NCBI GenBank assembly: GCA_024399015.1
Contig: JAKSIC010000002.1
Span: forward strand, 132,732 to 196,731
Reading direction: 5' to 3'
DNA from: Fibrobacter sp.
Lineage (GTDB): Bacteria > Fibrobacterota > Fibrobacteria > Fibrobacterales > Fibrobacteraceae
DNA: 64,000 nt
The notes beneath the pieces are model-generated. The model was not told the origin of the DNA. It saw nothing but the letters and a program-made list of their open reading frames with translations, and did not search any database. Shown piece by piece: positions 30,239-45,480 of the stretch. The position numbers were made by a program, and so were the translations under genes. Numbering within the stretch: the stretch's first letter is position 1; each line of letters begins with the position of its first letter.

Positions 30239-31654
30239 ATGAGCGAAAATTACAAGTACGGTTTTGTGACGGATATCGAGAACGAGGCTTTTGAAAAAGG
30301 CCTTAACGAAGATGTCATCCGCCGTGCCAGCGCTCTCCGAGGCGAGCCCCAGTTCATGCTGGACTTCCGCCTAAAAGCCTACGAAAAGTTCTTGACCATG
30401 GAGCAGCCCAACTGGGGCGAACTGAATTTCGCTCCTGTGGACCTGCAGGACATCGTCTACTACTCCGCCCCCAAGAACAAGAAGTCCCACGAAAAAATCG
30501 AAGATGTGGACCCGGAACTCCTGGCCACCTTCGAAAAGCTGGGAATTCCTCTGGACGAACAGAAGCGTCTGGCCAACGTGGCCGTGGACGCCGTGTTCGA
30601 CTCCGTCAGTATTTATACAAGCCACAAGAAGAAGCTCATGGAAATGGGCATTATCTTCTGCAGTATTTCCGACGCCATCAAGGAATATCCGGAACTGATC
30701 GAACAGTACCTGGGCAGCGTGGTCCCTGCAGGCGACAACTACTTTGCCGCCCTGAACAGTGCAGTCTTTGGCGATGGTAGCTTCGTCTACATTCCCGCAG
30801 GCGTCAAGTGCCCCATGGACCTGTCCACCTACTTCCGCATCAACAACAAGGAAGCTGGCCAGTTCGAACGCACCCTGATTATCGCCGACGACAACGCCGA
30901 AGTCAGCTACCTGGAAGGCTGTACCGCTCCTGAATTCAGCAGCAAGCAGCTCCATTCCGCCATCGTAGAACTGGTAGCCAACGAAAACGCCAAGATTAAG
31001 TACAGCACCGTACAGAACTGGTACGCCGGCGACCGCGAGACTGGCGCAGGTGGCGTCTACAACTTTGTGACCAAGCGCGGCAAGTGCGCCGGCAAGAACA
31101 GCCGCATCAGCTGGACTCAGGTAGAAACCGGTTCCGCCATCACCTGGAAGTACCCCAGCTGCGTTCTGGTGGGCGACAACTCCGTCGGTGAATTCTACAG
31201 CGTGGCTCTGACCAACGGCCACATGCAGGCCGATACCGGCACCAAGATGATCCACATCGGTAAGAACACTCGCAGTACGATCATTTCGAAAGGTATCAGC
31301 GCCGACAATTCCAGCAACGCCTACCGCGGCGAAGTTTCTATCCGCAAGTCTGCCACAGGCGCCCGCAACTACACCCAGTGCGACAGCATGCTTGTTGGCG
31401 ACAAGAGTGCCGCCCACACCTTCCCCTACATTACGGTAGCTAACGGTACCGCCCAGACGGAACACGAAGCAACTACCAGCCGTATCAGCGAAGACCAGCT
31501 GTTCTATTTCGAGAGCCGCGGCATCAAGCGCGAAGACGCCATCCAGGCTATGGTGGGCGGTTTCTGTAAGGATGTGTTCAAGGAACTGCCCGGCGAATTC
31601 GCTACCGAAGCCCGCCAGCTGCTGACCCTGAAGCTGGAACACTCCGTAGGGTAA
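30239..31654 (+). CDS. sufB: Fe-S cluster assembly scaffold protein SufB
   Basis: 471 aa, the usual SufB length. The central beta-helix region and the [16 protein letters not shown] block near residues 381-396, with the conserved Cys, are typical of Suf[20 protein letters not shown]-type sequence near 178-196 is also a family mark. It forms the SufBC2D scaffold with SufC and SufD, but neither is adjacent on either side. A TATATT box at 30203-30208 and an AGGA before the ATG give it a normal leader. A 7-bp inverted repeat CCTACGA (30190) / TCGTAGG (30224) brackets the -10 region and could be a regulator site. Confidence 0.93.
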
Positions 31655-31672
31655 GACATCCTCCATGTTTTT

Positions 31673-31888
31673 TGTCACTAAACGTGAATTTCTCTAAGTT
31701 TAGTGACACGATTTTTACTTTGTCTGCAAAGCAGCTTTAAAAGTTTTATCACCAAATCATCTAAAAGACCTAATTAGTGACAAACAAAGAGTCTTTTTTT
31801 TATTACAACTAACAAACAACCCGCCATTTTTAATTACTTTGTTTGAAATCTCTGTCACTAAACACACATTTTCTTGGTTTTGGTGACA
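31673..31888. repeat. Three TGTCACTAAA / TTTAGTGACA inverted-repeat pairs in a 330-bp gap
   Basis: The gap 31655-31987 contains no gene. Pair 1: TGTCACTAAAC (31673-31683) and GTTTAGTGACA (31698-31708), perfect. Pair 2, degenerate: TATCACCAAA (31747-31756) and ATTAGTGACA (31773-31782). Pair 3: TGTCACTAAA (31853-31862) and TTTGGTGACA (31879-31888), one wobble. Half-sites are 14-16 nt apart. Pair 1 is followed by ATTTTT and could end sufB transcription; as a group they may be operators or a mobile repeat. Confidence 0.6.
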
Positions 31889-31987
31889 CATTTTCGCGAA
31901 AACGACCCTTTCAAACGTTCAAATTTCAAAGACTACTCGATTTCTGTCCAGCATTTGTTATTTTAGCAGCAAAAACAGAGGTACCCA

Positions 31988-32551
31988 ATGAACGTTCTTT
32001 TCCTTATGGCAAATGGTTTTGAAGAAACCGAATTCGTCACCCCCTTTGACTACTGGCAGCGCGGCGGGCTCAACGTAGCCTTGGCTTCCATCAGCGACAA
32101 CCTGGATGTTGTAGGCGCCCACGGTCTTGCCATCAAGGCAAACGTTCTTTTGAAGGATGTGATGGCTGGAGCCGCAGCAAGCCTCGCCGACTTCGACGCA
32201 GTCTGCCTCCCCGGCGGCGGTCCCGGCGTCAAAAATCTCAAGGCATCTGCAGCCGTGGCCGAAGTTCTCAAGAACTTTGACGCCGCTGGCAAATGGATAT
32301 TTGCCATCTGCGCCGCGCCCCTGGTGCTTTCCCAGGCGGGCCTCCTCAAGAACAGAACCTGCACCTGCTTCCCGGGCTGCGAAGTGGAGCTGGACTGCAA
32401 GCAGTTCCTTACCGACCGTGTGGTAGTAGACGGCAACGTCATCACAAGCCGCGGCGCAGGCACCGCCGAAGAATTTGCCTTCGAATGCCTGGCCCACGCC
32501 ACTGACCGCGCCACCTCCGAAAAGATCCGCAACCAAGTCGTCGCCCGCTAA
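31988..32551 (+). CDS. DJ-1/PfpI family protein (YajL/ThiJ-like)
   Basis: 187 aa. NVLFLMANGFEETEFVTPFD (residues 2-21) has the conserved Glu, and the nucleophile elbow AICAAPLVLSQAG near 106 holds the reactive Cys (about 108). TSRGAGTAEEFA near 157 is also typical. Members protect against oxidative or glyoxal damage or act as small amidotransferase-like enzymes; the exact role is open. An AGAGG precedes the ATG, so this gene has a normal leader, unlike many neighbours. Confidence 0.88.
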   Translation: MNVLFLMANGFEETEFVTPFDYWQRGGLNVALASISDNLDVVGAHGLAIKANVLLKDVMAGAAASLADFDAVCLPGGGPGVKNLKASAAVAEVLKNFDAAGKWIFAICAAPLVLSQAGLLKNRTCTCFPGCEVELDCKQFLTDRVVVDGNVITSRGAGTAEEFAFECLAHATDRATSEKIRNQVVAR

Positions 32552-32564
32552 TAAACCACAAGAC

Positions 32565-32591
32565 TTGCCGCGAAAGTTCATTTCGCGGCAA
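32565..32591. repeat. Perfect 11-bp hairpin after the DJ-1 gene
   Basis: TTGCCGCGAAA (32565-32575), loop GTTCA, TTTCGCGGCAA (32581-32591). There is no T-tract right after it, so it may be a processed 3' end or a weak terminator between convergent genes. GCGGCAACC recurs at 32617. Confidence 0.5.
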
Positions 32592-32701
32592 CCATCTTCA
32601 GCGACAGCATTTTTCTGCGGCAACCTTATTCTCTAAAAACATCTCGCAACAGCCTAGACTTCCATCAGTTCGCAACCGATACGATGGAATTCTTCGCCAA
32701 T

Positions 32702-33826
32702 TTACATTCCCTTAAGCCACAGAGCAAAGAACCTGTCGTAAACAACATACCCCTTTGGCGTTTGCATCACATATTCCTTGTCCAGCAAATACTCCAAGGC
32801 ACGATTAACGCAGCTAGCCGTTTTCAACCCACTATTCTTTACAAATTCACCGGAATTAATAGCAGAAACACAGCCCGCAAGCGCAATGGACAAAAGCAGA
32901 CGATTTTGGTTAAAAGTCAAGACATTCTGCATTCGTTGATAAATATCCATCTCGGACACCATGATTTTGCGAACACACATATTGACATCGTCCAGGCAAA
33001 CCACTTTTGGTGCCATCTCGTAAAGACGATTCAGCACCGCCTGCATATACCAAGTATGCCCTTCTAATCGTTCATACAAGGCATCAAAGCAGTCTCTAGG
33101 CAAATTGATCTCAGCCTTTTTCATCCAACCATTGGCAAATTCATAGTACGCCTTTTTTTCAATAGCATATAGATGAAACATTTCAGTGCTGCGGTAAAAT
33201 GGATGCCCCACGGAGCTAAACATTTCGGACATCAAATGATGCTTGCTACCCGAAAAAATGAAATGAACATTCGGGCAGAACTGGACATACGAACGTAACA
33301 AAGCCTCTACAGTTTCATCACCATATTCCGAAATCTGCTGGAATTCATCAACAGCGATAAAACATTCCCTTTCTGAATTTTTCAAGTATGAAAATATATC
33401 AGACAAAGTATTCTTCGTTTCTTTAGGATGAAAATCAAGTGCCGGCTGAAGGTTACCCGTCACAGGATCAACGGACATAGTCAACTTACAACTTTTGAAA
33501 ACGGAGACCGCCGCATTCAAGGCCTTCTTGCCCAAGCCGTCTAAAGTACCCAGAACAACTTTACCCAGCAAAACAACAAAATCTTCAAGAGACCTTGTTG
33601 GATAGATATCCACATAGAAACAAGCTGAATTTTTATCTCGTTTCTTAATTTCATCAAACACCCGCATAATAAGACCTGTCTTTCCCATGCGGCGAGGACT
33701 CAGCAAGGTAACATTTCGCCCATTCTTTAATGCAGAAATCAGCTGTTCCGTTTCAGAAACACGATCACAGAAATACTTTGGACCTGCGTAGCCATATACA
33801 AAAAATGGATTTACATTTTTACTCAT
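32702..33826 (-). CDS. AAA ATPase, archaeal-type / P-loop protein
   Basis: 374 aa. P-loop SPRRMGKT (43-50), Walker B FIAVDEFQQI near 173 and a sensor-like FSGSKHHLM near 205 give an AAA ATPase of the archaeal-type ATPase group. The C-terminal 90 residues look like a winged helix (AINSGEFVKNSGLKTASCVN pattern near 330). Relatives are often linked to mobile or defence loci, but their roles are poorly defined. The start is ATG 33826 (MSKNVNP), 6 nt after a TATATT box (33838-33833 on the minus strand). A 39-bp perfect palindrome lies directly upstream of that box. Confidence 0.78.
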   Translation of the reverse strand: MSKNVNPFFVYGYAGPKYFCDRVSETEQLISALKNGRNVTLLSPRRMGKTGLIMRVFDEIKKRDKNSACFYVDIYPTRSLEDFVVLLGKVVLGTLDGLGKKALNAAVSVFKSCKLTMSVDPVTGNLQPALDFHPKETKNTLSDIFSYLKNSERECFIAVDEFQQISEYGDETVEALLRSYVQFCPNVHFIFSGSKHHLMSEMFSSVGHPFYRSTEMFHLYAIEKKAYYEFANGWMKKAEINLPRDCFDALYERLEGHTWYMQAVLNRLYEMAPKVVCLDDVNMCVRKIMVSEMDIYQRMQNVLTFNQNRLLLSIALAGCVSAINSGEFVKNSGLKTASCVNRALEYLLDKEYVMQTPKGYVVYDRFFALWLKGM

Positions 33827-33840
33827 AACTACAATATACA

Positions 33841-33879
33841 AAAATTACACATTTTGCGTAACGCAAAATGTGTAATTTT
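33841..33879. promoter_or_regulatory. 39-bp perfect palindrome, probable operator of the ATPase gene
   Basis: Arms of 19 bp, AAAATTACACATTTTGCGT and its exact complement, around a single central base (33860). It occupies the -35/upstream region of the ATPase promoter. Such a site could be bound by a dimeric repressor, or form a hairpin. The window contains no obvious cognate regulator unless the ATPase's own winged helix binds it. Confidence 0.65.
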
Positions 33880-34019
33880 CATTTTAAAACCGAAAATATT
33901 ACAGAAGATTCGCCATCAATATTGCAATCAACAATCATGAGTACGATGCAGTTGGCAGACCGCATTTCAATATTAATCAAAGAATTTCTTTTTTCATGAC
34001 CGCCAGAAGGCTTTTACGG

Positions 34020-34044
34020 AACTACCGGCCTAGCCGGTAGTTTT
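34020..34044. terminator. Hairpin/terminator 1 before the pilin operon end
   Basis: AACTACCGGC (34020-34029) / GCCGGTAGTT (34033-34042), 3-nt loop, then TT. Perfect 10-bp stem. It can act on either strand. Confidence 0.6.
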
Positions 34045-34056
34045 CGGTTATACAAG

Positions 34057-34083
34057 AAAGCCTCCCCGAAGGGTGGCTTTTTT
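34057..34083. terminator. Hairpin/terminator 2 before the pilin operon end
   Basis: AAAGCC-t-CCC-CGAA-GGG-t-GGCTTT then TTT on the plus strand; on the minus strand it is followed by TTTCTTGT. It lies 70 bp beyond the stop of the giant pilin gene. Confidence 0.65.
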
Positions 34084-34151
34084 AGATGTTAGAAAAAGAG
34101 GTTAGCATGAAATAAATGCGATAAAAGTCTCTTTCAAGATTTTTATACAAA

Positions 34152-37100
34152 TTACCACGCGTTAAAGTTCATTTCAACATCTCCATCAGGAACGATGAAC
34201 ACATTACATGTGCCTCCCCAGATGTTAACATCAAATTCATTCCAAGAACCTTTTTCGCTTGATATTGTAATACTTCCTAAAGAACCATCACACTTTTTGA
34301 TGCTGATGGTGACCGGATTACTTCCAGACAAGCGTTCCAGCCTAAGTTTCACTCCATTATACTTGTACGGTATGTTGACGTAGTAACCGGTATTCTTTTC
34401 CATGTTAACATGCTGTGATGGGGCGTTATCTCTATTTTCAACAGTACCTATATTTGTTGAATTTCCTGTGTTACAACTAGAAGCGTCTGTAATGCCAGCA
34501 CTTACAGTCAATGTTCCACAATTATCCCCGGTTCCAAGAACATCAATTGTCACTGAGTAATCGCCGGTGCGGGGATCGGCAATGCCGCTAAATGATGCAG
34601 TCCCATTATTTACCGAACAACTATAAGGATAACCATTAATTGTAACAAAACATTCACTACCATTGGGAGCGTTAGTCGTTGCAGAAACGTCAAACGATCC
34701 ACGTGCACTTACTGTCAAAGGAGACAGGCCACATCCCGAAACGGTCACGTTTTCCACCACATTCACCTGCTTGGAGCAAATTTCCTGGGTGTAAGGCTTT
34801 GCATGACCATAGCAGAGATAGTAGTTGCCAGAGCCACTTGTAGGTTCAAACGACTGACTAATGTCACCCATAAGTGTAGCCTCCGTACCTTCAATCAACG
34901 TGCCGCTATTGCCACAACCGCCAGCATAGATTGCGTACTTCAAGTTCGCATCATATTCGCTGAGGCTAGCTTCAATCTTCGGCAAGGTACCGTTCTTCAC
35001 GTATGTGGTCGGGGTTTCATCACAAGAGAAACCATCCTTAACAGTAGCCTTTTTCTTTACAGTTACATACTGCACGCAAGACTTTGTTGTTCCATTGACA
35101 GATGACTTTGCGGTAAAGGTCAACGGTTCATTTTGCATTTCGCTGTTGAATGTGATAGAGTAGCTATTCCTACCAGAGAGCGTACATGCTACCCTATCGC
35201 TAGCATTGCTGGAGTTGTGACCCGCGCCATCAAAGGAACATTCATTCGTATTATCCAAGTCAGCGGAGAAGGTCACTCGGTCTCCCTGATACACGACCAG
35301 AGGATCCGTAGAGACATTTCTGTTTACACCATTCAACTGGCAGTTGCTCAGGTTGAATGCCGACGGGCAACTAGACTGAATATTACCAATGTGGAAGAAG
35401 GTACCATAGTTGTTATCGTTTGCATCTTCTGTGTTACCCATCCAGTCGGATCGATTATAAGCAGCTGCTATTTTGGCATCAAAATTAGCTTCGTTTTCAT
35501 CGTTAAGTCTCTTATACACCTTAGTCGGGTATTCCTCCATGCGAGAAGGCTTATTTTCTAACCGGTAATAAACCCTAGACACACGATCCGGCTTAAACAT
35601 CACTGAATCCAAGGACATATCGACTTTAACGGAAACGCGCCTATTCACCGGAGTGTCGCCACCCTTGGCATCTCTCCACCAGATTAGGCCTCGCTGACAA
35701 CAATCGTAAGCTGTATAAACCCTACTGTCGTGTGTTTTACCATTGTAAGTAACCTTCTCCATATGGTATGAGGTCGCTCCAGACTTTCTCCAAAAATCAA
35801 CAAAATATCCATTCTCATCCTTAGGGTTTTCATCTCTATATCTGTCAATTACTTTAACCGGTATGGTCGCATCGTACTTAAGAGTAATGTGTTCTTCACA
35901 GTTATTTACACGATAAAAATCAGCACTATGGCAATAGCTGGACAATCCATACTTACCATTGGTTTCAGGACCAGGTGTATGACCATCCACTTCCATACCA
36001 GCCATGTAATTCACGGAATCCAAGGGTATATGGCGAGATTCACCGCCATCTGTATCCACAAACCAATATTCAATTGCAGTTGCATTATTGGGCTGCAAAA
36101 TGTCGAAACTGAAGGTTGCACCATTCAAGTTCAAACGATAGGAACCCGTCACAGAATCGCGAAGCTGGATGTACTTGGTCGTTTCGCCCCAAGTCCACTT
36201 ACCCGTATTGTCAATGGAAACCTTAATCAAGTCAGGATTTTTCACCGTACCTAATTCGCCCGACTTGTAAGGATGAATCAAAGTTCCAGAAGGATTATTA
36301 GTCCACCCAGTACATTCTCCATCGGCATTTCGTGCTGTACACTGAGAATTATCGCCAATCCAATATTTGCAAGTAGTACCGTCTAATTTCTTTTCTCCAC
36401 ACATAGTATTTGCACCCTGGTCTTGAATATAATGGAATCCACCCCCCAAATAGACATTCGTGTACATGCCCTTTTCGCTAACGCCACCATTATTTAAGCC
36501 ACGATAAGAGTAAGTAGAATCAAAGCCAGAAATTTCACTACCATAGAGGTAAATATACGGGTAACCACGTCTCTGCTCATACTGGTTATCAACAAAGATG
36601 TGGTATGAATCCGTGCACATATTCTCATCGGAACCACGATCGTAGGTACTGAAGGCAGCACAAGGGGCTCGACCAACCCAGTTTTCCTTATAGTGCCTAA
36701 TACCATTGGCATCTTCATAGCCCAACAAGTCCTTACATTCCATCTTTACCTGCAAGGCTCCCTTACCATAGGTTGCTACACTGCGGAATGTCCCATCCCA
36801 CTTAGAACCATTAAGGTAGAAGGTGGGGGTACATTCGCATTCACCCCCATCAGGGCAGTAGTCTGTTACATAAGCCTTGGGGCGATCCTTTGTGTTGATT
36901 GCCACATAGGGATTATCGTACCCGCAGTAAATCGATGGTTCAGTGGTGGTACCTTCTTCACAGTTACCACCGCTGCGCCAGCTGACGTTATAGAACTTTA
37001 CCACTGCAGAATGAACATTGAAACCCACATAACGGTGGCTTGCAGTATCATTCCTCATTGCAGTAATCGGATTATCGGGCCTAGAATAGTGGAATACTTC

Positions 37101-40100
37101 CGGATCTTCCAGATTAACATGATAATCACTATAAACCATATTGGCACCATCATCGCTTTCGTAGGCAAGTTCGATATCAGCATAGGGACCGTCCAAATCC
37201 ACGGTGACCTGGATAGTCTTACCAACCAATTGATTGAACGGAATGTTCGTTTTTACCTTTTCCCAGGTGCAATGGCCAAGGTTATCGACACCACCCTCAT
37301 TGCGGTAATATCCGTTCTCTTCACGAGCATACTTTTCACCATATATAGCAGTGGAATCTGGGTTGCCTGCAGTTTCCCATCCTGGCGACCAACCCTTAAT
37401 ACCAAGTTCGTAGTAAGGATGCTTTGAATAGCAGTAACCCTCAGTACAGTGACATAATTGAAGGTGGGCTGTATTGGTTGTGGTAGATGACACCACATTG
37501 CTGAATATGAGAGTATCACCTTCAGGATCGTAAGTCACATTAGAGTATTCATTATGTTTGTCTCCCGCCGGATCAATAGCCAATGTAAAGAAAGATGTAA
37601 GGTCGGAATTCGCTCGGAAAATGAGGGATGTTTTTGAACCCCAGGACTCAATACCCTCGGATCCAGTGATTTTAATGGTTTCACGCAAGGTTCCATTATA
37701 ACCAGCCTGATGCTTACGAAGCATCATCTGCTGAACCTTATTTTTGCTGTTGTAAGCGTGGGTGGCGTATCCCAAATCACGATTGATAAAGGGTTTCTCG
37801 TTCCATTGAGTACTTTTGGAAGGACGCATAGGACCTCCCTTAGGCTGCTGAACACCTTGAGTCATTATCACCTTGAGCCAGGGGGACAAGGTATCATCTT
37901 GTGCATAATAGCCACCCTTAATACGAGGAGCGTCAAGAACGGGTGGATGACTATCCACTTTTTCCTCGCAGCAACGAGGGTTAGAAGTAGAACACGTATC
38001 AGGCAAACAAAAATCTTGCTTAACACCTCGATAGTGGCGATCGATAGCATTGTATTTTCCAAGTTCTCTTTCACCAGGGTCAAAGTAACTCCAAACCGAG
38101 TCTTCCTTTTCTGCCACAGAGCGCCTATCCATATAATTATGTGGATCCAGTTCACTCAATGTTTCGCCTTCCACATCGCAGTAAATACCATAATAATGGG
38201 AGTAGTTTGTTCCCGCGGTTTTCGGCGCACCATAAGCTTCTTGCACATTATAGTTTTCTTGCGTATAACGATAGAACTTATTAGAAACACACTGGTCAAT
38301 ACAGTATTTGGCTTGATAACCATTTTCAGCAGTAGCTGGCTCACGGCCAAAATCTCTCATGGCAACCCTAATAGGATTATGCTGAGCGCGATCCAATCTT
38401 ACAAAACCACCTTCCGCAACTGAATATACCGAACCCTCTACTGCAAATTGGTTATAATCACTACCCAAGTTCGCAAACCATCCTCCATTTGACCCGTTAG
38501 TACCAGCAGCCTTATCTTTGTATGTCGTAGCATTCGATTTCACGCCGCCCAAATATGCACCAGACACTTCCCTATCACAATAAGAATAGAGATTCTTGAA
38601 GTCTTCCACAAAGCAGTAGCCCGCATTGGTGAAGTAGGCGATAATCGTCATGTTGCCTTCGGGGCGAATTGTGATTCTTCGGTTATTAATGTCAGTCAGG
38701 CTGTTATCGCTACTGGACCAATGATTGAAATTTCTACCAGTTGCACGGGCATAGTACGTTTCATCATAATAAACAGTAAACGAGCACTTTCCAGCGTTAC
38801 CTGTTTTACAAGTACCCATGTAGTTGTTGTTACTATCGTAAATGGAAACATCAAAGTCTTCGTCGTCACCCTTGCCGTCGTCAGAAGGATCTCCTTTCAG
38901 GACATGAGCACTTCCCTTTAGGCCAGAAATTTTTACCGTAAGGGTATAATGACGTTTCTTAAGAGAGGCATAAGCCATCGTTACAGATCCATTGACAATC
39001 ACCGGGAAATTTTCCTGGCGGACAATGCATTTCTTTTCATCAAAACCACTGGCCTTCATGTAAGCCCTAGGATTAGCCTTACCTTCGATGTCGCATTCCC
39101 AAGGACCAGTAGCTTTGTCAAAGCCGCTACCTTCGTTACACCCCTCATTTCCGTCAATGTAGGCGCCCCAACTTACACCATTTTCGCCTATAGCACTTTC
39201 ATCACAGTCGGGAATCTGGGACAAGGTATCCAATACAGCAGGGAGTATGTAAGGATCGGCAGAAAGTTCACCCCTCTTCACGATACCCTTAGCAGAACCA
39301 AACATCACGAGTTCATTACTGGGGTTACCCGTTGTAAACTCATCAGAATAATCTTCATCTTCAAGCTTAAACTGAATGGATCCAGTTGCAGAGCCACAGT
39401 CATTTACAATAATATTAAACGGAGTAATCTGAGAAACACCGTCTGCTACGGTAAGTTCATATATAATTGCATCGTCGGTAACTGCTTTCTGAGACATGGA
39501 ATAACCTGTTCCAGACAAGCTGGTAACAAAGTCAATAGCAGACTTGTTGCTTTGGTCATAAACCGTCAATTTCAGTTTGCCACCCTTCTGCTTGGGGATA
39601 TTTATGCTAACCTGCTTGGTATTCTCCGCCTGGCAACGCTCACTATCCAGCATATAGTACAACACGTCGAAAGAGGCTAGCGATGTGGCGCCTTCGTCTA
39701 CAACATACACCCAGAATTTAGATTTTTCCGAACCTTCCTCGTAAACACAGGTATGAATACCATTAACCTTGAATGGCGAGGATTCGGAGACAGTCGTTCC
39801 AGAACTTTCGCTGGAACCAACATGACACACGGCCGAACCATTACCTGGGGCGAGTCCGCCAAGATACATCACTGAATATGCCTTTTTACCATTGTGATTC
39901 AGCATACTATCAACGTTTGTATAAATAACACGAGGTATCACCACTAACGCAGGTTCCAAAGATTCTACCTTATCCTGGTCCACCACCTCATTGTTTACAT
40001 ACTGCGTTGCAAGGTCAATTTTCAACTGAGGAGCAAAGGGGACCCACGGCTCCGAATTTACTTCAGGTTCTTCTGTCGAAGATTCAGAACCCGATGTTGA

Positions 40101-41978
40101 AGAAGTGGAAGTCGAGGATCCATCGCGATTTTCCGCACAAGAAGCGCCAGCACTATAATCGCAAATCGCCCCAGCATCACTCAAAGCATCTATGATCGTT
40201 TGGTCAAATTCAAGGTTCAAGGTACTTGGCAAACTACCCAGTTTAGCGCAACTTGCAGCCTCCGCATAAACAGAGCCCTTTAGAGTTCCATTATTCTTGA
40301 TATTATCAATATCGCCCTTCGTATAAATGAAGTATCCATAATTACCGGTGTCGCCTTTTTCAAGTTCAATAGCACCAGCGCCATTCTTAAGGAAAATCAA
40401 GACCGACTTGCCTTCAGTCGTCTGAGGAAGTTTCATTGTGTTAGGACGTTCTTCAAAAATGAAAATAAAATTTCCATTTAAAATACTATTTCCTGTATTT
40501 TCAAAGGCGTTGACATCATTAGGCTTAACAACCATAAATCCGCCATTTCCATACAAATCCGAGCTTTTCTTATCTGTAGCGGCGTAAATGGCATTCAATT
40601 TACCAATAGCGTCGTTGTCGCGCCATTGTGTACTTCCCCAAGTTACAATATCAGAAACAGTAACGCCCCCAGAAGCAGTAGTTACCGCATTAGCCTTGGA
40701 TTCGAAATTACCAAGAGAAATCATGTCTTGTATGGTAAACTTGGAGCCAGAGCAAGTCTTTTCAGCCTTTTTATCAAAGAGGGTCATGCAATAATCTTTG
40801 GCAACGTGCTGGCATGTGTGCGAGAACGCAGCACCCACATGTTTATCATTACTGTTGGAAATAAAGCAAAGATTACTAACCCCATCCTTACATACATTTC
40901 CGTTATTTTCGCTAAAACCTTCGCCAAGATGCAAAGATGAAGACTGTCGAGAAGTTAACCAGGCTGTAGTCCCCCCTATATAACCATCGATGCTGGACCC
41001 ACGCGGTATCCACACATCACCAACGGCGTTAAACGGATGATTTCTGTTAAAATTGAATTTGCCATTATCCGTCAAACAAAGTTCTTCACTGAAGATAATA
41101 TCGTGGCCTCCAAGAGCATCATTAACGCGGCCATTAAACGAAGCGTTTCCACCAAAAGTAACGTTGAAGTTGCCTGCTAAATCCACATCACCTTCAAAAT
41201 ACGAAGTGCCTCCCACATTACCCCTAATAGTAGATTTCGTTTTGGTATCGCTTTCGCCAGCAACATAGACATCCTTAAGGTCAGTTCCGTCGTTATTCAT
41301 CTCAATGTGACCACCAACGCAAGTTGTTCCACCCACAGATATGGCGCCACCACTGACAATATTCAGATTACCTGTAACAACGACATCTTCTTCAACAGAA
41401 GCTGCTTCACCGGATGCATTATAATCACCATTGATTAAAAGCGATGTTTTCTTATGGCCACCACCATTAATAGACAAGGAACCGCCAAAGTAGGAGTACT
41501 TGAACTTGGATTTTTTTGCAGTGGTTGGCGGATTGATTTGATAAAGGCCAGTCACCTTAAGAATGGCAACCTGACTATACTTAGAATTATCTCTGCCACT
41601 GCCCGTAGAAATCAACTTCAGTTTAATAGAACCACCTTCAGGCACGGCCTCGGTCGCGACCACAGTATAACTTTGGTTTCTACCGCTTGTCATGGCGGTC
41701 AGCTTGCTGCCAAGATCAACAACAACACCATTCTCACGACCATTCATGAGCTGGGTCACAAGGCCCGCGGTTTCCTCGCCATTATAGGCAAGCCATGCTC
41801 GAGCAGCATTAAGGCCAGCCTGTGAAGCCTGGTATGCCTCAGACTGTTTCAATCGAGAAGCGCTAGCGCGTTCCGCTGAATTCAACCACTTATAGACAGC
41901 CGTTGCAGCAATCGTCGCAATGGTCATGAATAAAAGAACCGTTACAAGGGCAACGCCCTTCTTTCCTTTCCAAAACAT
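34152..41978 (-). CDS. Giant PilX/GspK-like minor pilin with a ~2,500-aa extracellular extension
   Basis: 2608 aa. MFWKGKKG precedes a hydrophobic helix VALVTVLLFMTIATIAATAV, a type IV prepilin/pseudopilin N-terminus; there is no Glu at +5, as in GspK. ATG 41978 is chosen over 41996 because GGAGG stands 8 nt upstream. After the pilin part come beta-solenoid-like Gly/Asn repeats (about 165-295) and a Ser/Thr/Glu linker near 620-640. The remaining 1,960 residues are Cys-rich beta modules with many Trp and Tyr, ending in a domain containing KGSWNEFDVNIWGGTC. The giant part probably stands on the cell surface at a pilus tip, as an adhesin. I could not assign named domains to it. Confidence 0.8.
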   Translation of the reverse strand: MFWKGKKGVALVTVLLFMTIATIAATAVYKWLNSAERASASRLKQSEAYQASQAGLNAARAWLAYNGEETAGLVTQLMNGRENGVVVDLGSKLTAMTSGRNQSYTVVATEAVPEGGSIKLKLISTGSGRDNSKYSQVAILKVTGLYQINPPTTAKKSKFKYSYFGGSLSINGGGHKKTSLLINGDYNASGEAASVEEDVVVTGNLNIVSGGAISVGGTTCVGGHIEMNNDGTDLKDVYVAGESDTKTKSTIRGNVGGTSYFEGDVDLAGNFNVTFGGNASFNGRVNDALGGHDIIFSEELCLTDNGKFNFNRNHPFNAVGDVWIPRGSSIDGYIGGTTAWLTSRQSSSLHLGEGFSENNGNVCKDGVSNLCFISNSNDKHVGAAFSHTCQHVAKDYCMTLFDKKAEKTCSGSKFTIQDMISLGNFESKANAVTTASGGVTVSDIVTWGSTQWRDNDAIGKLNAIYAATDKKSSDLYGNGGFMVVKPNDVNAFENTGNSILNGNFIFIFEERPNTMKLPQTTEGKSVLIFLKNGAGAIELEKGDTGNYGYFIYTKGDIDNIKNNGTLKGSVYAEAASCAKLGSLPSTLNLEFDQTIIDALSDAGAICDYSAGASCAENRDGSSTSTSSTSGSESSTEEPEVNSEPWVPFAPQLKIDLATQYVNNEVVDQDKVESLEPALVVIPRVIYTNVDSMLNHNGKKAYSVMYLGGLAPGNGSAVCHVGSSESSGTTVSESSPFKVNGIHTCVYEEGSEKSKFWVYVVDEGATSLASFDVLYYMLDSERCQAENTKQVSINIPKQKGGKLKLTVYDQSNKSAIDFVTSLSGTGYSMSQKAVTDDAIIYELTVADGVSQITPFNIIVNDCGSATGSIQFKLEDEDYSDEFTTGNPSNELVMFGSAKGIVKRGELSADPYILPAVLDTLSQIPDCDESAIGENGVSWGAYIDGNEGCNEGSGFDKATGPWECDIEGKANPRAYMKASGFDEKKCIVRQENFPVIVNGSVTMAYASLKKRHYTLTVKISGLKGSAHVLKGDPSDDGKGDDEDFDVSIYDSNNNYMGTCKTGNAGKCSFTVYYDETYYARATGRNFNHWSSSDNSLTDINNRRITIRPEGNMTIIAYFTNAGYCFVEDFKNLYSYCDREVSGAYLGGVKSNATTYKDKAAGTNGSNGGWFANLGSDYNQFAVEGSVYSVAEGGFVRLDRAQHNPIRVAMRDFGREPATAENGYQAKYCIDQCVSNKFYRYTQENYNVQEAYGAPKTAGTNYSHYYGIYCDVEGETLSELDPHNYMDRRSVAEKEDSVWSYFDPGERELGKYNAIDRHYRGVKQDFCLPDTCSTSNPRCCEEKVDSHPPVLDAPRIKGGYYAQDDTLSPWLKVIMTQGVQQPKGGPMRPSKSTQWNEKPFINRDLGYATHAYNSKNKVQQMMLRKHQAGYNGTLRETIKITGSEGIESWGSKTSLIFRANSDLTSFFTLAIDPAGDKHNEYSNVTYDPEGDTLIFSNVVSSTTTNTAHLQLCHCTEGYCYSKHPYYELGIKGWSPGWETAGNPDSTAIYGEKYAREENGYYRNEGGVDNLGHCTWEKVKTNIPFNQLVGKTIQVTVDLDGPYADIELAYESDDGANMVYSDYHVNLEDPEVFHYSRPDNPITAMRNDTASHRYVGFNVHSAVVKFYNVSWRSGGNCEEGTTTEPSIYCGYDNPYVAINTKDRPKAYVTDYCPDGGECECTPTFYLNGSKWDGTFRSVATYGKGALQVKMECKDLLGYEDANGIRHYKENWVGRAPCAAFSTYDRGSDENMCTDSYHIFVDNQYEQRRGYPYIYLYGSEISGFDSTYSYRGLNNGGVSEKGMYTNVYLGGGFHYIQDQGANTMCGEKKLDGTTCKYWIGDNSQCTARNADGECTGWTNNPSGTLIHPYKSGELGTVKNPDLIKVSIDNTGKWTWGETTKYIQLRDSVTGSYRLNLNGATFSFDILQPNNATAIEYWFVDTDGGESRHIPLDSVNYMAGMEVDGHTPGPETNGKYGLSSYCHSADFYRVNNCEEHITLKYDATIPVKVIDRYRDENPKDENGYFVDFWRKSGATSYHMEKVTYNGKTHDSRVYTAYDCCQRGLIWWRDAKGGDTPVNRRVSVKVDMSLDSVMFKPDRVSRVYYRLENKPSRMEEYPTKVYKRLNDENEANFDAKIAAAYNRSDWMGNTEDANDNNYGTFFHIGNIQSSCPSAFNLSNCQLNGVNRNVSTDPLVVYQGDRVTFSADLDNTNECSFDGAGHNSSNASDRVACTLSGRNSYSITFNSEMQNEPLTFTAKSSVNGTTKSCVQYVTVKKKATVKDGFSCDETPTTYVKNGTLPKIEASLSEYDANLKYAIYAGGCGNSGTLIEGTEATLMGDISQSFEPTSGSGNYYLCYGHAKPYTQEICSKQVNVVENVTVSGCGLSPLTVSARGSFDVSATTNAPNGSECFVTINGYPYSCSVNNGTASFSGIADPRTGDYSVTIDVLGTGDNCGTLTVSAGITDASSCNTGNSTNIGTVENRDNAPSQHVNMEKNTGYYVNIPYKYNGVKLRLERLSGSNPVTISIKKCDGSLGSITISSEKGSWNEFDVNIWGGTCNVFIVPDGDVEMNFNAW

Positions 41979-41979
41979 A

Positions 41980-43248
41980 TTATTCCTCCGTTCCATTATC
42001 CGGTGTCGGAATCATTTTCTTAATACGGGTCGTTTCCTTTCCGTACTTAAGAGCCAAATTCAAATTAAAGGCTTTAACCTTTTTCTTTTCTTCTTTGTCG
42101 TTAAGGTTAAAATCAACAAAAGAATACTCAGCTTCGTCTCTTAACGTAACAGCAAACTTAGAAACAGTCAAAGATCCCTTCCAAACCAAGGGAGAGAACA
42201 GGGCTATCGTAAAGGCCAAGCACACGTCATCCGTCTGCTGAGGTACACTAAATTCCACATAGCGATTGTAGTCGTCATTCGATTCAGACGGATACACCAT
42301 AAAGTCGGGAGCATACGGAATAATATTTCCGTCCGGCTTACGAAGACCAATGCTTATATGATCTGTTCCTGGTAAGAAATCTCGCATAAAGTTTGGATTG
42401 GCATTCGAAGCAAAGGCCACCAGCTGAAAAGCTATAGCATAAGTCTTATATGGTTCGAACTTAAACTTCACACACTTTTTCCAATCAAAGTCTCCACCTG
42501 TGGGATTTCCATCCAGCAAATACAATTGCGATGCAACCTTTTCACTACCCGTATTGGAAGAAAACTGAGAGAGTGCAACATTGCTGCCGCTAGCAAAAGA
42601 CTCAATTCGCATAAAGCCCGAACCAGTTCTTGGAGCTAAAGCAAAACTATTCCCTAGAGCGAAATACCCCTTTGCCGGATAATAGGTTGCGGCATCAGTT
42701 TTAAAATCGGCATCTTGCAAACGACGACCAGGGGTTAGAGAAAATTCTTCCACCTTATCACTAATCAAAACTTCAAAAGACGAACCTTCGTCCTTATGAG
42801 GACAGTCCGAAGGATAACTGGTGATGGAGGTCGACTTAATTTCCAGAGACTGACATGATCTATAAAGTTTTTTTCCATCCAGCCTCCATTTAATCAGCTG
42901 GGAATATTCAGCAACACCATTTTTATCATAAACCAATTTTTTAAAACTAATCTCATCTTTCGATGCATTCAGAGCAAACGACGAATGATCCGAATTGGCG
43001 TCATCATAAAACACATCAGTTTCCAACTTGTTAGAGCCATCGGTCAAGACAAACTTCGCACCCATTTGGCTTAGATCTTCCGCAATCATCTGCGAAAGAT
43101 TATCAGCCTCGGTAGTTCCCTGAAGCATGTTTTCCGTGCGAACACGGAACTTCGTACTATCGCTGAAAGCCTGACCGGCGACTATCACAATAATGCCAAT
43201 AAGGCCCATATACACGAGCAATTCTATTAAAGTAAAGCCTCTTTTCAT
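41980..43248 (-). CDS. PilW-like minor pilin
   Basis: 422 aa. MKRG then FTLIELLVYMGLIGIIVIVA is a classical prepilin leader and N-methylated helix with Glu at +5. The long C-terminal domain includes a beta-rich region and the LSQFSSNTGSEKVASQL-type stretch near 225; it is larger than typical PilW (about 350). It should be cleaved by the prepilin peptidase and assembled with the neighbouring pilins. It overlaps the PilV-like gene by 4 bp and ends just before the giant gene. Confidence 0.85.
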   Translation of the reverse strand: MKRGFTLIELLVYMGLIGIIVIVAGQAFSDSTKFRVRTENMLQGTTEADNLSQMIAEDLSQMGAKFVLTDGSNKLETDVFYDDANSDHSSFALNASKDEISFKKLVYDKNGVAEYSQLIKWRLDGKKLYRSCQSLEIKSTSITSYPSDCPHKDEGSSFEVLISDKVEEFSLTPGRRLQDADFKTDAATYYPAKGYFALGNSFALAPRTGSGFMRIESFASGSNVALSQFSSNTGSEKVASQLYLLDGNPTGGDFDWKKCVKFKFEPYKTYAIAFQLVAFASNANPNFMRDFLPGTDHISIGLRKPDGNIIPYAPDFMVYPSESNDDYNRYVEFSVPQQTDDVCLAFTIALFSPLVWKGSLTVSKFAVTLRDEAEYSFVDFNLNDKEEKKKVKAFNLNLALKYGKETTRIKKMIPTPDNGTEE

Positions 43249-43742
43249 CGTACAACCCCCGATACCGAAATAGAGTGAGTTGATCCCTTATTAGTCCAAG
43301 ACACATCCACTGTTGCATTTTTCGCATAGACATGCTTTACCGGGGCGTCCAGGTAGTTAGATGAACTCTCGCTTTGGAACATTACATCATCAGAAAGCGT
43401 AACAGTCACATCATAGTCAACACGAATGGTATACTCTAAAAGACCAGGCTGTCCTTTCCATTCCCTGGAACGAGATAAATTAATAGTCCTATTGGTATTG
43501 TTATTGCTCAGTGCTGCAATACCCACGGCATTAAGCGAGTCGAGGATTTCCTGTGCAACCATATTTGCACCATCACGAGCACGAATACGCCAAAGAGAAT
43601 CACGGTTGCTGCTTTGCATGTGGTTCAAGGCAACGAGCATAAAGCCGAGAACCGCGGCGGCGACAAGAATTTCAGCAATTCCAAAGCCAGACTTGGAATT
43701 TTTGAAATTAGCGTTGAGAATTTTTTTGCTTTTGCACCACAT
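43245..43742 (-). CDS. PilV-like minor pilin
   Basis: 165 aa from ATG 43742. The leader MWCKSKKILNANFKNSKSG is followed by FGIAEILVAAAVLGFMLVAL, a prepilin cleavage site (SKSG/FGIAE, Glu at +5) and helix. Then comes NMVAQEILDSLNAVG, typical of PilV. AGGTG lies 7-11 nt upstream of this ATG. A longer frame would overlap the FimT-like gene and give a poorer leader. Confidence 0.82.
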   Translation of the reverse strand: MWCKSKKILNANFKNSKSGFGIAEILVAAAVLGFMLVALNHMQSSNRDSLWRIRARDGANMVAQEILDSLNAVGIAALSNNNTNRTINLSRSREWKGQPGLLEYTIRVDYDVTVTLSDDVMFQSESSSNYLDAPVKHVYAKNATVDVSWTNKGSTHSISVSGVVR

Positions 43743-43755
43743 AAGGCAACACCTG

Positions 43756-44328
43756 TTAAAGTCCTGACATACCAGAATTATCATCGCTATAGCCAGTCAA
43801 AGCCTTTACTGAATTCTCAGAGAGCCGCTTAAGTGCAGCAGCGTAATGATTGGAATTGGCATAGCGAGCGCAAATATACCCAGACGGCACCGCAGAGCCA
43901 CCTATACGGGGGACAAATTCACCATTGGAATTGATAATAAGATTTACAGAACAGCCATCATTTGCTCCACAACCGTTAAATGACGGGCAAGTATTGGAAA
44001 AACTCATTGGAGCTTCTAGTTCAAACGTAAATAAGGGATCGCTGTTCACATTCTTTTTGCCTTCATCATCATCAGGAAGGCATTCACCCTTCGTCACAAG
44101 AAGCTTCTGACCAGATGCCGTAAGGCATAATGGGGTGGATAGACGTTTTGATTCACTAGCCGTTTGTTCAAGAAAAGCTGCCATATTTCGTGCTGCACCA
44201 GCAACCCTTTTGTTTTCGATAGCCTGACGAAGACTCACCACGCCCATGGACGACAAAACACCCATGATAGCCACGACCACCATAACCTCAACAAGGGTAT
44301 AACCGCTTTTTTTACAGGACCTCAACAT
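43756..44328 (-). CDS. FimT/GspH-like minor pilin
   Basis: 190 aa from ATG 44328. MLRSCKKSG, then YTLVEVMVVVAIMGVLSSMG: prepilin leader, Tyr at +1 and Glu at +5. The downstream domain has AARNMAAFLEQTASESKRLS and two Cys pairs (NTCPSFNGCGANDGC). It is the first gene of the four-gene operon and has an AAGGAATCA Shine-Dalgarno within an A-run leader. The -10 TATATT lies upstream of the A-run. Confidence 0.85.
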   Translation of the reverse strand: MLRSCKKSGYTLVEVMVVVAIMGVLSSMGVVSLRQAIENKRVAGAARNMAAFLEQTASESKRLSTPLCLTASGQKLLVTKGECLPDDDEGKKNVNSDPLFTFELEAPMSFSNTCPSFNGCGANDGCSVNLIINSNGEFVPRIGGSAVPSGYICARYANSNHYAAALKRLSENSVKALTGYSDDNSGMSGL

Positions 44329-44556
44329 AATTTTGATTCCTTTTTTTTTTAATATAAATAAATAATAGCCGAAGTGTAAACGGAGATTTACCAAGCAGCA
44401 CTTGTTTTTGCACAAAATCAACCTCGTAAAAAATCGCTCACTGCATGTTACTAAAAATTTACAAAGCTATTGTAATGGTATTCATCTCGCGTCTTATTTT
44501 CCCTCCGTTTCAGCTGAAATTCATAAAAAATCGCAAGAATTACTATATTTGGTGCC

Positions 44557-45480
44557 ATGAATTTTAAGGACCGCATTATTCGATCTACGGGCAAGAAGGC
44601 TCCTTTCCGCCTGGTTCTTGTGGACATCACCAACACAATGAACGAAATCGGGGCAAAGCACGGAGCCCAGTCTTACTCCCTTAAATTGCTGGCTGAAACC
44701 ACAATTTCGTCCATTTTTTTGAGCAGTAGCCTCAAGATGAAGGGTACTGTAAGCGTAACCGCCACCTTCGGTGGTGAAATTTCCTACGCAAAGGCAGACA
44801 CTACCCCCTACATCAGCCGTAAGGAAGACGAAGAGTCCTACTACTTTGTACGCGCCATGATTCCACAGGACGACCTGCAGTCCATCAAGGGCGACGAACC
44901 GGCCCTGATTCCTCAGAACTATCAGGTGGTAAAGCTGAACGAATACGGCAAGCGCGTTCACGAGAGCGTGGTACAGGCCGTTAGCCCCTCCATGGGTCAG
45001 AATCTGGCAACCTACTTGTTCCAGTCCGAACAGATTCTTTCTGCAGTGGGCATCGAAGCCCAGTTCAACAAGCAGGACCCCAGCAAGCTGGACTATGCCG
45101 TTGGTTTTTACGTAGAAGCCTTCCCCGAAATGGAAGAGAAGGACACCACCACCTTGGAACAGGTTGTGTTGAACTTGCCCAAGTTCTCTGAAATGTACGA
45201 CGCCCAGGAAAAGGGCGGCAAGACCATGGTGGACGAATTGCTTTACCAGTTCGAAGGTCCCTACGAAATTGAAGTCATCAAGGAATTTGGCGCCAAGGCA
45301 TTCTGCCCTTGCAGCAAGGAACGCACCATCAGTTCTCTGGCAGCACTGCCCTTGAACGACTTGAAGGACTTGGAAAAGGAAGGCAAGGATCTTGAAATGG
45401 TCTGCGACTTCTGCCGCAACAAGTACATCGTGACTATCGATGACTTGAGAAATTTGATTAAGGAAAGAGAATCCAAGTAA
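44557..45480 (+). CDS. hslO: Hsp33 redox chaperone
   Basis: 307 aa. The C-terminal zinc/redox switch is complete: Cys250-x-Cys252, 30 residues, Cys283-x-x-Cys286. The N-terminal domain is of the usual length. Hsp33 holds unfolding proteins under oxidative stress when its zinc is released. The ATG lies 7 nt after a TATATT box (44544-44549) with no Shine-Dalgarno. thrH follows 20 bp downstream. Confidence 0.92.
   Translation: MNFKDRIIRSTGKKAPFRLVLVDITNTMNEIGAKHGAQSYSLKLLAETTISSIFLSSSLKMKGTVSVTATFGGEISYAKADTTPYISRKEDEESYYFVRAMIPQDDLQSIKGDEPALIPQNYQVVKLNEYGKRVHESVVQAVSPSMGQNLATYLFQSEQILSAVGIEAQFNKQDPSKLDYAVGFYVEAFPEMEEKDTTTLEQVVLNLPKFSEMYDAQEKGGKTMVDELLYQFEGPYEIEVIKEFGAKAFCPCSKERTISSLAALPLNDLKDLEKEGKDLEMVCDFCRNKYIVTIDDLRNLIKERESK

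Follow-up and report, generated by a model that had tools for sequence, protein, structure and literature searches.

The window analysed here is a 64,000-nucleotide stretch of a Fibrobacteraceae genome (G000; 3.3 Mb in 43 contigs, 99.85% complete) whose nearest named relative is a Fibrobacter MAG from horse faeces. Positions 44328-34152 on the minus strand hold a minor-pilin operon of four overlapping genes in the order FimT/GspH-, PilV/GspI-, PilW/GspJ- and PilX/GspK-like (H, I, J and K, respectively). The H prepilin (43756-44328; 190 aa) matched N_methyl (E 1.4e-7) and GspH (E 5e-10), and has the cleavage site SG/YTLVE with Glu5 present. The I prepilin (43245-43784; SG/FGIAE, Glu5 present) is a 179-aa ORF whose true start may be internal, and its matches to PilV (E 0.002) and GspI (E 0.003) were both sub-threshold. 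The J prepilin (41980-43248; 422 aa; N_methyl E 9.5e-6) has the cleavage site RG/FTLIE, again with Glu5, and its gene overlaps both the pilV-like gene and the longer ORF version of the fourth gene. The open reading frames and the N_methyl/prepilin matches on genes 1-3 agree with the four consecutive prepilin genes of the original prediction. The operon is bordered by SufB-like and DJ-1-like genes on the left (30239-32551, plus strand) and by a FolE2-like gene on the right (44557-45480, plus strand). A 379-aa AAA ATPase-like ORF (32702-33841), located between DJ-1 and the fourth gene, was not seen at this place in the relatives tested.

The fourth gene encodes a K-like modular prepilin, referred to below as the giant (34152-41978, minus strand). 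Read from the upstream ATG at 41996 (34152-41996), the ORF amounts to 2,614 aa. A Shine-Dalgarno sequence, GGAGG, lies at 41985-41989 on the minus strand, ahead of the inner ATG at 41978, making this ATG the likely start, with the 2,608 aa predicted originally. Residue numbers count from ATG 41996 unless stated otherwise. With a mass of about 280 kDa, the giant is about nine times the normal size of a pilus-cap protein. Set against the 284-aa K-like protein that this genome encodes in its T2SS-like cluster, the earlier description of the extension as about ten times longer than usual is fair.

The leader MFWKGKKG, the hydrophobic alpha1 and the pilin moiety span residues 7-154 (41535-41978), which is the most conserved part in the family (dN/dS 0.04). 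It is followed by a solenoid-like segment (residues 155-345; 40962-41534) with short strands every ∼6-7 residues, where 14 copies of the motif hydrophobic-(x)-G-[GN] were counted, mostly at 6-7-residue spacing, compared to 4.2 in shuffled sequences. A Ser/Thr-rich linker (residues 622-650; 40047-40133), 60% identical between orthologues, leads to a beta-rich core kept across the family (residues 651-1126; 38619-40046), in which residues 1010-1126 look like a repeat of the InlB-B type (one relative matches Pfam Flg_new_2 at E 0.006). Residues 1127-1681 (36954-38618; 555 aa) are an expanded form of a ∼220-350-aa domain, and residues 1682-2614 (34155-36953) comprise variable Cys-rich modules, a mosaic with recently recombined blocks. 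The giant has 65 Cys in all, with 2-4% Cys in large segments C-terminal to residue 360. The solenoid-like repeats, Ser/Thr linker and Cys-rich modules that the original prediction had described were thus all recovered. Self-BLAST listed no internal repeats, a weak negative as its filter compared coordinates as text. About 2,450 aa lie beyond the pilin moiety, and the giant is therefore a modular pilin in the sense of non-pilin modules on a pilin.

The nearest relative, L002, encodes a full-length orthologue of the giant (84-85% identity). Over 2,595 codons the dN/dS between the two was 0.108, and as it never exceeded 0.19 in any segment, the giant is kept as protein over its whole length; on this comparison, the giant is intact and under purifying selection throughout. 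Against distant members, conservation was highest in residues 1-160, moderate to about residue 1126, and dropped in the lineage-specific stretches 1160-1360 and after 2010. Homologues were found in 96 of 111 Fibrobacteraceae genomes, covering 54 of 56 high-quality assemblies and 10 of 11 genera. This spread, the full-length orthologue and the low dN/dS together argue that the gene is not a chance ORF. Complete giants read from contigs in the main set range from 1,562 to 3,201 aa; a divergent genus of the family has a homologue of 925 aa, and a sister family in the order one of 1,500 aa, directly preceded by a PilW-like gene. Beyond these a single weak match was found in the phylum, and the viral contigs searched yielded no relatives. 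In all the 45 giants inspected, a PilW gene lies directly upstream (gap of -76 to +16 nt) and the +5 residue is T, A or V, never Glu.

The giant itself has a class III prepilin leader followed by hydrophobic alpha1 (KKG/VALVTVLLF), with Thr at +5 where its H, I and J partners carry Glu5, and it is encoded after their genes. In the minor-pilin complex, the capping subunit is the one without Glu5 (PMC10191384). Its N-terminus matched PilX_N below threshold (E 0.023) and the GspK N-terminus of NCBIfam (E 2e-5); the curated scores were missed in both families (15.1 versus 25.5 bits for PilX_N; 24.2 versus 130 for NF037980). By likeness and position the giant thus corresponds to a K subunit, yet its membership of the curated families would be remote at best.

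We considered whether the giant could be a tip pseudopilin of a T2SS, with its extension being periplasmic or engaged in substrate handling. In NCBIfam, the giant is indeed ranked as GspK and the product of the first gene as GspH, and the genome has three secretins. ComZ-type pilins, however, also show GspK-like N-termini, and the separate T2SS-like secretin cluster (C34:140-145 kb) already has its own small prepilins together with the 284-aa K-like protein. The giant is on a different contig from the secretin clusters. Outside the T2SS-like cluster, the N_methyl search returned one H-I-J set, that of the window, and four scattered single matches. An exported domain of this length with fast-exchanging modules would also fit poorly in a periplasmic pseudopilus, and we regard the T2SS assignment as improbable. 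The genome has T4P genes as well, namely PilB, PilC with PilT, a second PilT and a PilM...PilQ-like cluster. The PilW gene upstream, the absence of Glu5, this T4P machine and the T2SS-like cluster with its own K together make the K subunit of a type IV pilus tip the most likely identity of the giant; where the original prediction placed a PilX/GspK-type tip subunit at the end of a minor-pilin operon, it is upheld by gene order, Glu5 pattern, family conservation and the T4P machine. The 284-aa K-like protein (L105:11301-12155), which had no NCBIfam match, contains a short glycine-rich, possibly solenoid-like stretch.

Apart from the N-terminal pilin signature, Pfam, NCBIfam and PDB searches of the window giant gave nothing convincing. 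Among its relatives, no recurrent domains other than PilX_N and GspK were seen (39 proteins against Pfam, 20 against NCBIfam). A profile of the whole giant gave a single chance-level match in PDB (E 0.5), and one of residues 1127-1681 gave nothing usable in PDB or Pfam. From its motif order, the latter segment is possibly a ConA-like jelly roll, on a weak and inconsistent profile signal; hhalign scored it 24 with the PF06439 set, versus ≤18 for negative controls (E 0.01), and 9 with the Laminin_G_3 set, in a test that barely linked two known ConA-like sets. AF2 models were unusable for residues 12-1160 (3 sequences; mean pLDDT 34) and 1118-2010 (2 sequences; mean pLDDT 26), and the solenoid-like segment was the best, still low, stretch (pLDDT 50-59).

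Sequence profiles recognised no CBM or lectin domain among 39 giants; the window giant showed no recognisable CBM, lectin or fibro-slime domain, and the fibro-slime family TIGR02148 matched neither this protein nor 19 relatives. Cellulose, the substrate that made an adhesin role attractive in the original prediction, is therefore unsupported as the ligand of the giant. The fibro-slime proteins of F. succinogenes, surface proteins implicated in cellulose adhesion (PMC3079729, PMC4668043), belong to the same genus and differ from the giant in this family match. That no ligand-binding domain was recognised might also be taken to mean that the extension is a structural spacer or a surface polymer devoid of any specific ligand. 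Invariant Cys and Trp residues and the ∼220-350-aa domain are, however, kept in nearly all giants while other modules vary, and we find the spacer explanation very improbable.

The original prediction had also stated that no pilY1 gene is seen at the locus. PF05567, the C-terminal beta-propeller of PilY1/PilC, matched none of the giants and none of the 168 Fibrobacterota genomes, a result that is uncalibrated, as the 14 control genomes were also without a match.

Taking these data together, we propose, with a probability of roughly 0.68, that the operon encodes a type IV pilus tip complex in which the giant K subunit caps the fibre and carries the adhesive part, doing the job of PilY1. In the giant, the pilin moiety would be followed by a solenoid-like stalk and, beyond the Ser/Thr linker, by the conserved core rich in beta structure and the variable modules rich in Cys. 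Judging from its motif, the leader would be cleaved by the prepilin peptidase. The K subunit without Glu5 would then join H-I-J, and start and cap the fibre as in homologous systems; its assembly and tip display are inferred from such systems (PMC7541494, PMC10191384). The extracellular part of ∼2,450 residues would be shown at the tip and bind a surface or a partner, so that the pilus would grapple and adhere with no need for PilY1 as a separate protein. The evidence for this proposal comes mostly from sequence comparisons among draft genomes.

Tip pilins that carry grafted adhesive modules are known in principle (PMC8179133, PMC9934059, PMC6561018). PilB and PilC of Streptococcus sanguinis are modular pilins whose extra modules are of the vWA and ConA-like lectin kinds; they have been modelled at the tip of the pilus (PMC8179133, PMC9934059). 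As in the giant, modules are grafted there on a minor pilin, and they are adhesive in S. sanguinis; PilY1 is absent there and gave no match here. PilC, however, is about 53 kDa, comes from a monoderm and, like PilB, has recognisable domains, whereas the modules of the ∼280-kDa giant are unrecognised and the giant belongs to a diderm, where it fills the K place in a complete H-I-J-K set. The FimU-PilV-PilW-PilX plus PilY1 clusters of Pseudomonas and Myxococcus have the same H-I-J-K gene set as the window, and M. xanthus has three alternative clusters of this kind per genome (PMC13190605). Unlike in those clusters, the candidate adhesin is part of PilX, with no match to PilY1 in the uncalibrated search. 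The size of the giant, its capping position in a diderm H-I-J-K set, its family-wide spread and the exchange of its cassettes are new, and no record of such a subunit was found in the open-access papers searched.

The interval between sufB-DJ-1 and folE2-serB (window 30239-45480, L161-L170) holds different cassettes, other genes or nothing in different genomes. The cassette adjoins folE2, as in the window, in G050, G051, G052, G094 and G096; sufB/DJ-1 lies on its other side in G052, G094 and G096, the three of these genomes in which that side was covered. The pilins and giants of these five cassettes are about 27-49% identical to those of the window. Close relatives have in the same slot giant versions with 33-39% identity, or none, although the folE2 genes are 95% (G050), 93% (G051) and 91% (G052) identical to that of the window. 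The slot is empty in G048 (85 bp between DJ-1 and folE2) and occupied by other genes in G028 and G057, and G047 has an 85% orthologue of the giant located elsewhere. By these comparisons, related species swap the whole minor-pilin gene set, which is suggestive of a sticky pilus tip that can be exchanged.

The giant is also a recombination mosaic. Against a background of mostly 67-81% nucleotide identity between the operons of the window and L002, blocks of 97-99% identity occur near residues 1617-1817 and 2317-2417 (from ATG 41978), and dS is 0.19 in residues 1676-2004 (from ATG 41978) versus 1.2-1.7 in most N-terminal segments. The FimT proteins of the two are merely 32% identical. As judged from these alignments, the blocks in 34152-37128 are due to recent recombination in the C-terminal modules. 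In L002, a tyrosine recombinase of 283 aa (PF00589, E 5e-21) lies between two divergent minor-pilin/giant cassettes and is enclosed by a 204-nt inverted repeat (L002:6230-7797), 90% identical in its non-coding part. This segment, 6434-7593 of L002, is a candidate invertible switch between two tip cassettes; no element of this type is present in the window. Inverted repeats in L049, L057 and L058 were rejected as switches, being in or near the starts of paralogous genes and explained by homology. In the IncI-type PilV shufflon (compare TP114, PMC9045228), a tyrosine recombinase diversifies a T4P subunit with an adhesin role. The L002 arrangement is similar, except that its inverted repeats surround the region between the cassettes instead of a pilin gene's 3' end.

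The sequences show cassettes being replaced at a fixed slot, recombined as mosaics in the C-terminal modules and multiplied through duplication of the pilW-pilX pair, with tandem or divergent pairs in many genomes; such diversification would fit selection on a ligand-binding part. It is possible, though tentative, that Fibrobacteraceae replaced PilY1 by giant K modular pilins on exchangeable cassettes and thereby change the pilus ligand between cells or strains, through slot swaps, C-terminal recombination, tandem duplication and possibly the invertible, recombinase-bearing segment of the one relative. A tip-displayed giant could also serve mainly in DNA uptake, in contact with bacteria or a host, or vary under pressure from phages or protozoa, instead of adhering to plant polymers. 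The solenoid-like segment beside the pilin moiety is reminiscent of Thermus ComZ, a pilin of GspK type that has a beta-solenoid and is proposed to act as a tip receptor (PMC6561018); the ComZ solenoid has about 380 residues and ComZ binds DNA, while in the giant >2,000 further residues follow. The replacement and mosaicism of alleles have the look of a diversifying exchange, and the recombinase-flanked arrangement in L002 points the same way. Adhesion to a diverse substrate would, however, select for diversity as well. We consider such a main task somewhat unlikely, and compatible with, not exclusive of, the proposed adhesive tip complex.

That the giant functions as an adhesin at the pilus tip is plausible by analogy with modular pilins, and from its architecture and cassette exchange; the original prediction is supported in part, and no adhesive domain was recognised. 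Pili are reportedly involved in Fibrobacter adhesion (PMC3079729, PMC4668043, PMC6851124), which makes the role reasonable to test. In the S85 genome paper a few pilin genes were listed, and the set needed for a pilus was considered incomplete (PMC3079729). The way in which Fibrobacter holds on to cellulose has long been in question; pili have been implicated in it, and the genes described here, which 54 of the 56 good family genomes share, now offer concrete targets. The giants extend modular pilins to an unusually large size and to the capping position of a diderm pilus, and with exchange at a fixed slot, tip specificity becomes testable by allele swap.

Duplicated pilW-giant pairs, in tandem or divergent and often without a fimT/pilV of their own, were observed in L043, L046, L047/L048, L049, L058, L066, L067 and L078.
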